A stretch of DNA of 64,000 nucleotides from Pseudomonas baltica (GTDB lineage Bacteria > Pseudomonadota > Gammaproteobacteria > Pseudomonadales > Pseudomonadaceae): the NCBI RefSeq assembly GCF_031880315.1, contig NZ_CP134771.1, positions 1,922,001-1,986,000 of the forward strand, read 5' to 3'. Shown here piece after piece: positions 34,859-57,330 of this stretch; within the stretch, counting starts at the first letter, position 1; each line of letters begins with the position of its first letter. Both the position numbers and the translations under genes were made by a program. Below the pieces are notes generated by a model. The model saw nothing but the letters and a program-made list of their open reading frames with translations, had not been told where the DNA came from and ran no database searches.

Positions 34859-36207
34859 TGATTCGACGTTACGGGCGAGCAGTTCTCGTCACGCTGGTAG
34901 TATTGATCCTCGCGCTGGCGGGCGGTTACTGGCTCTGGAACCGCCCTGCCCCGGCGGCCCATGTGGAGCAAATCGCCCTGAGCGACGGCAGCAAGGCGGC
35001 ATTGGTGACCCCGGGCACGCGCATCAAGTCGCGAGTGGCACTGGCGGTTCCAGCCGAGCAAATGCTCAATGACAACCAGTTGCTGGACCTGAGCCAGTCC
35101 GGCTCGGCGCAGATCCTCCAGATCGTCCTGCCCAAGGACGATTGCACTCTGCAGGCCCAGGCATTGCAAGCCGGCCTGAAGAAGCTCGATGGCGCACCTG
35201 ACGTGGTCAGCGGCATCGGCCCTGGTGCGACCCTGGCGTGGCAATGGCTGGCCAGCCAGAACAACGACAAGGCCCAGGCCATCTCGGTGGACTTCACCAT
35301 CGAGCATGCCGAGGAACCGGACCCGGACGCGCCGAAGCCAGCCGTGCCGCCGCCGCCCTTCGAGCCCAAATGCAAGACGCCACTGATCAAGTCCGCACCC
35401 CACGGCAAATGGACCGTGGCCTGGAATGACAACCCGGACGACGTCGCCGCAGCCTTCGTGCGCGACCAGCCCAACGCTCAGACCAGCATCAGTGACTACG
35501 ATGTAAACCTGCCACAGGTGATGAAGAATTCGCTGGCTGACGTCCTGGTCGGGCAATCCGCTGGTCAGTTGAAGATTCCAGTGGTGGAGGTGCCTGCGGG
35601 GCAATCCTCCGACACCGTGACGCTGTTCCTGTCCGGTGACGGTGGCTGGCGCGATCTGGACCGCGACGTAGCAGGCGAAATGGCCAAGCTCGGCTACCCG
35701 GTGGTGGGTATCGACACGCTGCGCTACTACTGGCAGCACAAGAGCCCGGAGGAAACCGCCTACGACCTCGCTCAGCTGATGCACTTCTACCGTCAGAAAT
35801 GGGGCACCAAGCGTTTCATCCTGGCCGGCTATTCATTTGGCGCCGACGTGTTGCCAGCGGTCTACAATCGCCTGCTGCCCGAAGACCAGAGCCACATCGA
35901 TGGCGTGATCCTGCTGGCCTTCGCCCGTAGCGGCAGCTTCGAGATCGCAGTCGAAGGTTGGCTCGGCGCTGCTGGCAAGGAGGCACCTACCGGGCCGGAA
36001 ATGGCCAAGCTGCCTGCTGCCAAGGTGCTCTGTGTGTACGGCAAGGAAGAGGCAGACGAGACCGGCTGCACCGAGGCCACCGCCCCGGGTACCAAGCTGG
36101 AGCTGCCTGGCGGTCATCACTTCGACGAGAACTACCCGGCACTGGCCAAGCGCCTGACGGATGCGATCGACAAGTTCCAGGGTAAGGAAGACACTGCTCA
36201 GAAGTGA
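34858..36207 (+). CDS. AcvB/VirJ-family alpha/beta hydrolase (probable aminoacyl-PG hydrolase)
   Basis: A 449-residue exported protein. An N-terminal hydrophobic segment (about 8-26) leads to the periplasm, and the C-terminal VirJ-type hydrolase domain has the nucleophile Ser326 in GYSFGAD. The order mprF then this gene is that of PA0920-PA0919, where the second protein hydrolyses alanyl-phosphatidylglycerol. The four-base ATGA overlap indicates coupled translation, so synthesis and turnover of the lipid are likely balanced. Confidence 0.88.
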   Translation: MIRRYGRAVLVTLVVLILALAGGYWLWNRPAPAAHVEQIALSDGSKAALVTPGTRIKSRVALAVPAEQMLNDNQLLDLSQSGSAQILQIVLPKDDCTLQAQALQAGLKKLDGAPDVVSGIGPGATLAWQWLASQNNDKAQAISVDFTIEHAEEPDPDAPKPAVPPPPFEPKCKTPLIKSAPHGKWTVAWNDNPDDVAAAFVRDQPNAQTSISDYDVNLPQVMKNSLADVLVGQSAGQLKIPVVEVPAGQSSDTVTLFLSGDGGWRDLDRDVAGEMAKLGYPVVGIDTLRYYWQHKSPEETAYDLAQLMHFYRQKWGTKRFILAGYSFGADVLPAVYNRLLPEDQSHIDGVILLAFARSGSFEIAVEGWLGAAGKEAPTGPEMAKLPAAKVLCVYGKEEADETGCTEATAPGTKLELPGGHHFDENYPALAKRLTDAIDKFQGKEDTAQK

Positions 36208-36223
36208 TTTTTCGGTGGTGATG

Positions 36224-36259
36224 AATAGCCCGAGTTCTTTATGAATTCGGGCTTTTTTG
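36224..36259 (+). terminator. Terminator of the mprF operon
   Basis: AGCCCGA and TCGGGCT arms with a TTTTTT tract, 17 bases after the stop codon. Confidence 0.85.
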
Positions 36260-36290
36260 TTGGTGGTGAGGGGGCTGGGGATTGGGGTGC

Positions 36291-36508
36291 GGCTCTGCTT
36301 GCGCTCCAGCCTGGGCGGCGCCCCACATTGGCCCCTCGCTGACGCTCGGGGTTCCCGCGTTCCGGCTTCTGAATCGGTGGCACGCCGCGAATCGCCCTCC
36401 ATGGCTCAACGCGGCTTCCCCGGCATCCATGCCGGGGAGCCACCGATTCAGAAGCCTCCACGCGGCCTGCTGGAGGGGCGCCGCCCAGGCTGAAGCGCAA
36501 GCAGAGCC
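36291..36508 (-). repeat. Long palindromic element A (inverted partner of element B)
   Basis: The outer arms 36291-36324 and 36475-36508 pair over 34 bases with one mismatch. The inner arms 36364-36381 and 36439-36456 pair perfectly over 18 bases. A further hairpin lies at 36418-36437. Read on the minus strand it has the conserved TCCAGCAGGCCGCG, CCGGCATGGATGCCGG and GGCCAATG blocks found in elements B and C. Overlapping open frames on both strands are products of the palindrome, not genes. Confidence 0.9.
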
Positions 36509-36573
36509 CGTCGGAAGTCGAGGCGCCACCGCTAACGCTTTTAAAAGCTCGATAACGCCGCAAGTATCACTGT

Positions 36574-36795
36574 TCTGCTTTCGAGTCGGCCTTGGGGTTG
36601 CGGCCCCCTTCCAGCAGGCCGCGCTTCGACGTGCTGGCGAGGGGATAGCCGGCATGGATGCCGGCTAAGCCCCGTTGGGCCACGGAAGGCCCATCGGGGC
36701 GTGCCCCTCGCCAGTGCGTCGAAGTGCGGGAACCCTGAGCCAAAGCGAAGGGCCAATGGCGGGGGCCGCGACCCCAAGGCCGGCTCGAAAGCAGA
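36574..36795 (+). repeat. Long palindromic element B
   Basis: The outer arms 36574-36608 and 36761-36795 pair over 35 bases with two mismatches. The inner arms 36624-36644 and 36704-36724 pair over 21 bases with two mismatches. Hairpins at 36647-36666 and 36670-36699 fill the core. Loop sequences match element C at 56.9 kb, while the inner stems are different. It is 65 bases from element A and in the opposite orientation. Confidence 0.9.
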
Positions 36796-36833
36796 ACCAC
36801 CCCGATCCAAAGTGCTCCGCCAACGACCGATCA

Positions 36834-36850
36834 ACCAAAAGCCGACCTGC
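36834..36850. repeat. Sequence repeated, inverted, before element D
   Basis: ACCAAAAGCCGACCTGC is the reverse complement, with one mismatch, of GCAGGTTGGCTTTTGGT at 56712-56728. It could mark an outer edge of the repeated unit. Confidence 0.5.
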
Positions 36851-36880
36851 GAAATGCCCTCAAACCCGCACCAGCAACCA

Positions 36881-38779
36881 TCACATCTCTACCTGGGTCC
36901 CCAACTCGATCACACGATTAAGCGGCAGATTGAAGAAGCGCAAATTACCATTGGCGTTCTTCAACATGAACGCAAACAACGCCTCGCGCCATCTAGCCAT
37001 GCCAACGATCTTCGAAGCGATCACCGTCTCGCGACTCAGGAAGTAGGTCGTACGCATAGGGCTGAAATCCAGCTCATCCAGATGACACAGGGCCAGCGCG
37101 CCAGGCACATCGGTCTCGTCCATGAAGCCGAAATGCAGGATCACCCGGAAAAAGCCTTCGCCGTAGCTTTCCACCTCGACCCGGCGCTCGGCACTGACCC
37201 GCGGCGTGTCTTCGTTGAGTACCGTCAGCAGTACCACTTGCTCGTGCAACACCTGGTTATGCAGCAAATTATGCAGCAGCGCATGGGGCACCGCGTCGGA
37301 GCGTGCAGTCAGGAACACCGCGGTGCCCTGCACTCGGTGCGGCGGTTGCACGCGGATACTGCCGATAAAGATCGGTAGTGGCAGCGCGCCCTCGTCGAGG
37401 CGCTCGACCAGCAGCTGTTTGCCGCGCTTCCAAGTGGTCATGAGGATGAACAGCACGGTGCCGGCCAGTACCGGGAAGGCGCCGCCTTGGACGATCTTCG
37501 GCACGTTGGCGGCGAAAAACAGGCCATCCACCAGCAAAAAGCCGATCAACACCGGCACCGCCAGCAACGGTGGCCATTTCCACAGCAGCAACATGACCGC
37601 CGAGACCAGAATCGTGGTCATCAGCATGGTCCCGGTGACTGCAACGCCGTACGCCGAGGCCAGCGCACCGGAGGACTCGAAGCCCACCACCAGCAGGATC
37701 ACACCGACCATCAGCGACCAATTGACCGCACCAATGTAGATCTGCCCCTCTTCTGCGCTCGAGGTGTGCTGAATGTACATGCGCGGGATATAGCCGAGCT
37801 GGATGGCCTGGCGCGTGAGCGAGAAGGCACCGGAAATCACCGCCTGGGAGGCGATGACTGTGGCCAGGGTCGACAGCGCCACCAAGGGAATCAATGCCCA
37901 GCTAGGTGCCAGCAGGTAGAAGGGGTTGCGTGCCGTCTCCGGATCGGACAGCAGCAAACCGCCCTGGCCGAAGTAGTTAAGCACCAGCGCCGGCAGCACC
38001 AGGATGAACCAGGCACGGGCGATCGGCTGGCGGCCGAAGTGGCCCATGTCGGCGTACAGCGCCTCGGCACCGGTCAATGCCAGTACCACGGCGCCAAGAA
38101 TCGCCACGCCCATGCCAGGGTGGACCACGAAGAAGCGCACCGCCCACATCGGGTTGAGCGCCTTGATCACCTCGGGGTTCTGCACGATGCCATACAGGCC
38201 CAGCGCGCCCAGCACCAGAAACCACAGCACCATGACCGGGCCGAACAGCTTGCCGATACGCGCCGTACCACGGCTCTGGATCAGGAACAGCGCCACCAGC
38301 ACCACCAGCGACAAGGGCACGACCCAATGCTCGATGCCATCGAAGGCCAGTTCCAGGCCCTCGATCGCCGAGAGCACCGACACGGCCGGGGTAATCATGC
38401 TGTCGCCATAGAACAGCGCCGCGCCCACCAGCCCGCACACCACCAGCAATGCCCGCAGGCGCCGGTGGTTGGCGGCGGCACGGGAGGCCAGCGCCGTCAG
38501 CGCCATGATCCCGCCCTCGCCCTGGTTGTCGGCGCGCAACACGAACAGCATGTATTTGATCGAGACCACCCAGATGAGCGACCAGAAGATCAGCGACAGG
38601 ATGCCCAACACGCCATCATGGTTGACGGGAACCCCGTAACCTCCGGAAAACACCTCACGCAGGGTGTACAACGGGCTGGTACCAATGTCGCCATAGACCA
38701 CGCCCACGGCCGCCACCAACATACCCACCGCACCGGGGCGAGAATGCCCGGTGCCCGCCTGACTGTTTGCCTGAACCAT
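36881..38779 (-). CDS. kup: Kup-family low-affinity potassium transporter
   Basis: A 632-residue inner-membrane K+/H+ symporter. The conserved [12 protein letters not shown] lies in the first of about twelve membrane helices, and a hydrophilic C-terminal tail of about 170 residues follows. The ATG at 38779 is preceded by AGGAG; the longer frame upstream overlaps the control region. It is convergent with mprF-acvB and divergent from rimO. Confidence 0.95.
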
Positions 38780-56728: not shown

Positions 56729-56746
56729 GGATTGGAGATTGGGGAG

Positions 56747-56864
56747 TGGTCCTTTGCTACGAGCCTGTGCGGCTCGCCCTGCCCATTGGCCCTTCGCCTA
56801 GGCTCAGGGCACCTGCACGCGGCCTGCTGGAGGGGCGGCCGCACAGGCCCGCAGCAAAGGACCA
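56747..56864 (-). repeat. Long palindromic element D (short form)
   Basis: Arms 56747-56773 and 56838-56864 pair over 27 bases with two mismatches. On the minus strand it contains CCAGCAGGCCGCG and GGCCAATG blocks of elements A-C, but the inner stem and core hairpins are absent, so it is about 100 bases shorter. It is inverted relative to element C, 53 bases away. Confidence 0.85.
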
Positions 56865-56917
56865 TTCGGAAATGGGGAGCGCCCATAAAGCTGAACAGAC
56901 GACACAAATATCACTGT

Positions 56918-57139
56918 TCTGCTTTCGAGTCGGCCTTGGCGTCGCCGCCCCCTTCCAGCAGGCCGCGTTCCGGTACGCTTGCGCAGGGCTAGCCGGCAAG
57001 GATGCCGGCTAAGCCCCGCTGGGCCATGGACGGCCCATCGGGGCGTGCTCTGCGCAAGCGTACCGGAACGCGGGAACCCCTCGCGTCAGCGAGGGGCCAA
57101 TGGCGGGGGCGGCGACGCCAAGGCCGACTCGGAAGCAGA
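56918..57139 (+). repeat. Long palindromic element C
   Basis: Outer arms 56918-56952 and 57105-57139 pair over 35 bases with one mismatch. Inner arms 56968-56986 and 57050-57068 pair perfectly over 19 bases. Hairpins lie at 56991-57010 and 57014-57043, and a third is CCCCTCGC-GTCA-GCGAGGGG. It matches element B in loops and order but has a different inner stem. Confidence 0.92.
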
Positions 57140-57190
57140 ACCAACCCAACCCAAGAACCCAGCCCAGAAAAAATTCACCAAATCGCAGGC

Positions 57191-57218
57191 AAAAAAAAGG
57201 GGCGGTTTGACCCGCCCA
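57191..57218 (-). terminator. rsmZ: Terminator of rsmZ
   Basis: GGGCGGGT and ACCGCCCC arms with an eight-T tract on the minus strand. Confidence 0.9.
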
Positions 57219-57322
57219 CATTTTTTCCATATTTCCCTGTATTCCCTGTCATCGTCCTGATGAATCGCGTCTTGCGATGTCCTGGCTCTCGATCCGTGAG
57301 GGCCTGTGTCTGTCCGTAGACA
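57195..57322 (-). ncRNA. rsmZ: Regulatory sRNA RsmZ
   Basis: A minus-strand RNA of about 128 nt between fdxA and rpoS, the place of rsmZ in pseudomonads. It begins TGTCTACGGACAGACACAGG, a hairpin with GGA in the loop, and has seven GGA motifs in total (ACGGA, ACGGA, AGGA, AGGA, GGGA, GGGA, TGGA), the binding sites for RsmA/RsmE. It ends in a GC-rich terminator. It sequesters Rsm proteins and so relieves translational repression of secondary metabolism genes under GacS/GacA control. The exact ends are inferred. Confidence 0.93.
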
Positions 57323-57330
57323 CAGTGCTG

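Follow-up and report, generated by a model that had tools for sequence, protein, structure and literature searches.

The window analyzed here is a stretch of 64,000 nucleotides from Pseudomonas baltica, and all coordinates are positions within it. Reading of the sequence revealed two head-to-head pairs of palindromic elements, for which the labels A to D of the first-pass annotation were kept. In the first pair, element A extends over 36291-36508 on the minus strand as a whole hairpin with a gamma-type outer stem. Its partner B, also a whole hairpin, extends over 36572-36797 on the plus strand and carries an alpha-type outer stem, and a spacer (36509-36571) lies between the two. The second pair begins with element D (56744-56867, minus strand), which according to its sequence and to the comparison with the genome of a sister species (G349) consists of an outer stem and loop blocks only. 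It is followed by a spacer (56868-56915) and by element C (56916-57141, plus strand), again with an alpha-type outer stem. This pair adjoins rsmZ, which was located by cmscan at 57192-57324 on the minus strand, approximately 50 bp from element C. The first-pass annotation had placed all four elements at 36291-36795. This interval is correct for A and B, but C and D lie approximately 20 kb away.

The predicted fold of an element starts with a long outer stem leading to a junction, from which a long inner stem rises with two hairpins on top, each carrying a GGA loop. One side of the junction carries the block CCAGCAGGCCGCG, and the opposite side carries a small hairpin together with GGCCAATG. 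The outer arms are complementary to 97% in A, 95% in B, 97% in C and 84% in D. The inner stems of A and C have 18 and 19 bp, and that of B has 21 positions, of which 19 form Watson-Crick and 2 form G-T pairs. Direct reading of the sequence thus bore out the earlier claim that the loop blocks of A to D follow a common order and that the inner stems pair. Sequence and fold together place the first apical loop of A (AUGGAU, on a GC-rich stem) at 36425-36430 and its second (AUGGAG, on a 3-bp stem) at 36397-36402, both on the minus strand. The corresponding loops on the plus strand are AUGGAU (36654-36659) and ACGGAA (36682-36687) in B, and AAGGAU (56998-57003) and AUGGAC (57026-57031) in C. Single elements measure 218-226 nt and a unit of two divergent elements approximately 500 bp.

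The first-pass annotation could not match the elements to a named family. Comparison with Rfam by cmscan assigned A, B and C to RF01731 (TwoAYGGAY) with 57.8, 56.5 and 68.1 bits, each exceeding the gathering score of 43 bits. The matching cores are 36348-36472 in A, 36612-36736 in B and 56956-57080 in C. Element D gave no RF01731 match in the covariance-model search because its inner domain is deleted while the outer loop blocks are kept; its counterpart in the sister genome reached 40.7 bits, which is below the family cut-off. RF01731 belongs to the same Rfam clan as RsmZ (CL00106). Like the described family, the elements show two adjacent hairpins with AYGGAY-like loops under a common closing stem. 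They differ from it in extent, since the RF01731 matches span only the inner 125 nt of each element. All six apical loops of A, B and C contain GGA, but the strict AYGGAY motif is not always kept (AUGGAG, ACGGAA, AAGGAU). In the available text of the 2010 screen no function is given for TwoAYGGAY (PMC2864571), and binding of CsrA was proposed in 2014 by a motif study (PMC4333381, excerpt). Excerpts of later work report a longer helix with covariation support (PMC7657543), hairpin stabilities (PMC11661157) and two additional covarying pairs in Rfam 15 (PMC11701678). The available parts of the literature naming TwoAYGGAY or RF01731 mention no outer stem, side hairpin, divergent unit, dispersal or stem exchange.

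Folding as RNA gave -195.8 kcal/mol for B (226 nt; mean of shuffled sequences -107, z -17.2) and -181.5 kcal/mol for A (218 nt, z -13.9). None of 200 shuffled sequences folded as well as the native one, either for A or for B. A search with the loop pattern retrieved at least 120 stretches, and the matches listed include Pseudomonas, Stenotrophomonas, Xanthomonas, Saccharospirillum and others. Across these genera the closing inner stems have unrelated sequences that nevertheless pair. A closing stem could be detected in 103 elements. In 36 representatives of these, 84.3% of the positions in the inner-stem arms form Watson-Crick pairs, compared to 33.3% (sd 2.6, maximum 43%) when arms were permuted within the same set. 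A second set of 36 excised rows, consisting of 33 elements plus A, B and C and with every row joining pieces cut from a single element, showed pairing in 91.4% of the cells versus 58.7% after shuffling and 40-50% in slid registers; both sets were selected by loop pattern and minimum stem score, which inflates the absolute pairing percentages. Double changes in these rows numbered 211 versus 76.6 in shuffled rows and were present in 12 of the 12 stem pairs counted. Thus, the fold is maintained across unrelated stem sequences, as had been claimed from the four copies.

A set of 273 distinct elements gave 201 stems, and the strand on which the fold is formed was deduced from their isolated mismatches of distinct context. 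Read on the sense strand, G.T mismatches outnumber A.C mismatches by 88 to 30 (p = 9e-8), and G.A mismatches outnumber C.T mismatches by 54 to 9. An earlier version of the test with 48 representatives had given 57 G.T versus 22 A.C, and a strict version with 14-bp windows gave 17 versus 10, which is not significant. A DNA fold of both strands, or copying of one arm from the other alone, should produce equal numbers. Therefore, the strand carrying AYGGAY is the folded one. The original suggestion of a folded RNA or a DNA cruciform holds as far as one folded strand is concerned, be it RNA or single-stranded DNA, while a cruciform of two strands is disfavoured by this asymmetry.

The own genome contains 29 matches to RF01731, 28 of them over the cut-off, which are distributed over 17 places. 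In 12 of these places the elements form divergent pairs with the minus-strand element on the left and the plus-strand element on the right, and two further pairs, each with one half without the core, were recognized by reading of the sequence. In all 14 pairs an alpha outer stem is joined to a stem of another type. Pseudomonas sp. UFMG81 (G411) harbors 60 matches, and the 20 regions retrieved from it contain 20 neighbouring pairs, 19 of them divergent. Over all loci examined, a divergent arrangement was seen in 72 of the 84 cases of neighbouring elements no more than 900 bp apart, a descriptive count because the loci partly overlap. Tail-to-tail pairs, against this usual order, were observed in genome G413 (C66:65512-66009 and C193:21984-22488). 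At least 95 of 149 genomes of the genus contain an RF01731 match, and several contain many copies of identical score.

Sites lacking the element were found for two copies. For one copy in genome G099, 30 loci were retrieved out of 139 genomes possessing the gene next to it, and the 420 bases after this gene are empty by loop pattern in all 29 relatives. All 13 other loci with acvB and kup both read lack the pair A/B, though the sister species has an element at that site. Copies located at sites that are empty in relatives demonstrate that the unit disperses. The D/C insertion is shared by the sister genome, which is 98% identical at fdxA and has both elements whole. Elements no more than 900 nt from fdxA occur in 4 of 56 loci, namely in the own and the sister genome (one insertion) and in two relatives, loci L153 and L156, whose TwoAYGGAY elements near this fdxA site belong to another subfamily; this number is too small to judge an insertion preference for rsmZ.

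The apical loops were compared in the own-genome matches found via the covariance model. The first loop is AUGGAU in 14 of the 29 matches and the five-base AGGAU, one loop base short, in 11. The second loop is AUGGAU in 9, ACGGAA in 9, AGGGAU in 3, AUGGAA in 2, AAGGAU in 2 and AUGGAC in 1. At least two GGA hairpins with stems of four or more pairs are formed in 26 of the 29 matches and only one in the other 3. Most copies consequently fit A-N-GGA-X with variation at N and X. The high-affinity consensus of RsmE, as given in the accessible part of PMC4005645, is a hexaloop ANGGAX placed directly on a stem. The loops therefore vary precisely where RsmE tolerates change, which we count in favor of RsmA/CsrA binding sites. 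In the minimum-energy folds of A to C the first loop closes to a tetraloop. It is further stated in an excerpt of PMC7652899 that very stable structure might disfavour CsrA binding and that most hairpins selected by SELEX have at most four contiguous pairs; the extremely stable stems of the elements may thus lower the affinity for CsrA. Among 200 Pseudomonadota genomes, 16 were positive for RF01731 (13 over the cut-off), and CsrA is encoded in 16 of 16 positives versus 133 of 200 overall, a co-occurrence confounded by phylogeny because 15 of the 16 belong to the class of P. baltica. The own genome encodes five CsrA-family homologues; most of the 133 CsrA-positive genomes show one or two.

Taken as a whole, the sequences are best read as a mobile non-coding repeat whose RNA would offer two RsmA/CsrA sites as a decoy, and we assign this reading a probability of roughly 0.55. 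A/B and D/C are both copies of the dispersing non-coding unit, which is approximately 500 bp long and composed of divergent TwoAYGGAY elements with unlike outer stems. Transcription of the sense strand of each element would arise by read-through or at a promoter; a scan of 36150-36950 gave no sigma-70-like promoter. The long stems would present two hexaloops of the kind bound with high affinity by RsmA, RsmE or CsrA, and a single RNA could bind to the dimeric protein and serve as a small decoy. Any stem sequence would serve as long as it is paired, so that stems could be exchanged as cassettes. For the same reason the two halves of a unit could stay unlike, which would avoid one long perfect palindrome.

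The dispersal and the mismatch asymmetry would fit a folded DNA strand as well as an RNA. Accounting for both by a single-stranded DNA element, in which the hairpin on one strand is recognized by a transposition enzyme and the GGA loops are contacts between DNA and protein, is conceivable but improbable. HUH transposases recognize the ends of REP or IS200/IS605 elements. However, none of the best 25 of 78 Pfam families found in 90 neighbouring ORFs is of the transposase type, and the 10 ORFs scanned out of 28 lying close to elements in two other Pseudomonas genomes gave neither a partner IS nor a transposase. Moreover, the loops match ANGGAX, the consensus of an RNA-binding protein, at the variable positions as well. 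The ends of the unit share a G-rich inverted sequence by eye. A clean junction or target duplication was not obtained at the own locus L003, where the sister genome (L382) has a different palindromic repeat in place of TwoAYGGAY, nor at the other queried own copies, for which the draft contigs of the sister did not contain both flanks. We take the repeat of the sister at this site to be REPIN-like from its appearance; it is as if such intergenic places swap one kind of repeat for another.

Comparison with the sister species revealed how the stems change. The comparison covered 12 orthologous elements in which both cores are present; D, the right half of own locus L027 and the right half of sister locus L005 were left out since one core is missing. 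The stem type is the same in 8 of the 12. In 3, both arms of the inner stem have been exchanged, namely in the right element of L023 and the left element of L019 in the own genome with the outer stem type kept and in the left element of L006 with outer differences as well. The remaining one, element A, is of another type as a whole, gamma here and beta in the sister. With 4 of 12 orthologous elements differing in stem type, the view that the exchanged stems reflect compensation alone could not be upheld. The replacement in blocks looks like recombination from copy to copy. Since the loops on both flanks of the inner hairpin are alike across copies, recombination there can move the whole hairpin, and pairing survives without stepwise compensation. 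This exchange of cassettes with conserved pairing is a clear example of a structured RNA with a nearly free stem sequence.

Stepwise change was seen as well. The compensation between the outer stems of B and C that had been pointed out from the sequence (GGGG/CCCC versus GGCG/CGCC) is present, and the sister ortholog of C has GGGG/CCCC, from which C differs by a double change of G-C to C-G. It is thus a double change within a single locus. Forty-two pairs have changed in seven of the eight same-type orthologous elements, comprising 5 double compensations, 16 one-sided changes that still leave a pair and 21 broken pairs. Four of the 5 double compensations are the same G-C to A-T change. With half of the changed pairs broken, single pairs are under modest constraint in the short term.

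The exchange of stem types, the modest short-term constraint and the one-arm changes seen at the base of the inner stem would suit selfish palindromes that fold without molecular function, one arm being repaired from the other by template switching or gene conversion. Such a process is neutral with respect to the strand and should not yield the observed excess of G.T over A.C and of G.A over C.T. It would also leave unexplained that diverged copies keep the GGA of both loops on the same strand. We consider this explanation unlikely.

The genes next to the elements are diverse: when 90 of 203 flanking ORFs were scanned, no Pfam family occurred in more than three. Gene orientation around the elements, based on simple ORFs as gene calls, gave counts of 36/26/26/21 and thus no clear preference. 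A cis-regulator of a gene class was rejected on these grounds. Diverse neighbours without a clear preference of orientation are as expected of a trans-acting or a selfish repeat. The same lack of orientation bias bears on a role as terminator, insulator or stabilizer of 3' ends, in which the very stable intergenic hairpins would protect or end neighbouring transcripts. Terminator-like hairpins do lie beside the first pair, at 36227-36253 (plus strand) just left of A and at 36814-36798 (minus strand) at the right end of B. However, neither is on the sense strand of the adjoining element, no other was found in 36150-36950, and the two GGA loops would be left unexplained, which makes this role very unlikely.

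Each of the three Rsm proteins of P. putida KT2440 pulls down RNA from intergenic regions next to ISPpu8 and a 'long palindromic region' (PMC7937890, available part); from this description the regions may be TwoAYGGAY elements. That RsmA acts on the element itself, binding to the loops as self-regulation in order to repress or direct the movement of either the unit or an RNA intermediate, can be given hardly any probability: an influence of the Rsm proteins on the mobile element whose flanks they bind is raised as a possibility by the authors of the same paper in the text available, but no mobilizer was identified in the ORFs scanned here.

The preferred reading of a decoy RNA places the elements close to the sequestering RNAs RsmX/Y/Z and CsrB/C, with which they share GGA loops on stems of a kind able to bind RsmA/CsrA. 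They differ from these RNAs in having only two sites, in being dispersed in multiple copies and in their long and nearly arbitrary stems, and no promoter was found for them in 36150-36950. With the REP/REPIN sequences and their RAYT proteins the elements have in common that they are dispersed intergenic palindromes in Pseudomonas that occur as inverted pairs. However, REP palindromes measure 20-40 bp (PMC3733652, excerpt) and the elements described here approximately 220 nt; they further differ by copy numbers in the tens, by the GGA loops and by the lack of a link to a tyrosine transposase among the adjacent ORFs scanned. The R200 repeat, one of the R0-R200 families of P. fluorescens, has 320 bp with 47 copies in SBW25 and 8 in Pf-5 according to part of PMC2718517. 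Its size and copy number would fit such an element. In the accessible parts of the literature on P. fluorescens repeats and on repetitive elements binding CsrA/RsmA, no work joining both subjects was found. With regard to a MITE, the ends share the G-rich inverted sequence by eye, no target duplication could be read at the sites compared, and the scanned ORFs gave no partner transposase. RsmU of Xanthomonas is probably not a member of this family, since its authors report no homologue in Rfam 13 (PMC7694677, excerpt).

TwoAYGGAY in Pseudomonas is a dispersing, paired and strand-specifically maintained repeat, and together with CsrA in all positive genomes this turns the suggestion made in 2014 into a concrete test. 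If the decoy reading is true, a mobile element acts on a global post-transcriptional regulator. We tentatively go one step further and suggest, as a possibility with the odds against it, that the divergent two-RNA units, amounting to 60 elements in one genome, might form a distributed sponge that tunes this regulator. The repeat might then spread by copying pairs of decoys, its interchangeable stem cassettes being kept unlike within a pair, and the tandem repeats at its flanks might hint at an undescribed way of moving.

These tandem repeats have units of 5-9 bp and cluster at the flanks of the elements. In 289 partly overlapping loci, 245 arrays per 295 kb were counted near elements versus 122 per 1,151 kb elsewhere. 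They were noted at L358-L377 in UFMG81, at L005, L016 and L021 in the own genome and at L208 and L214 in Stenotrophomonas. Within one genome the unit varies by copy, with GGTCGA, GGGTTC or GGTCGC at the same end.

Carriage of the unit by plasmids or phages was rejected, as 72,556 plasmid and 50,697 phage records contained no match to the own unit; the plasmids also gave no high-identity match to the unit of UFMG81. The loop pattern was observed on 17 viral contigs (L311-L327), in eight of which the flanking ORFs are alike. These ORFs look like MutS genes, and these contigs may for this reason represent chromosomal flanks of prophages.
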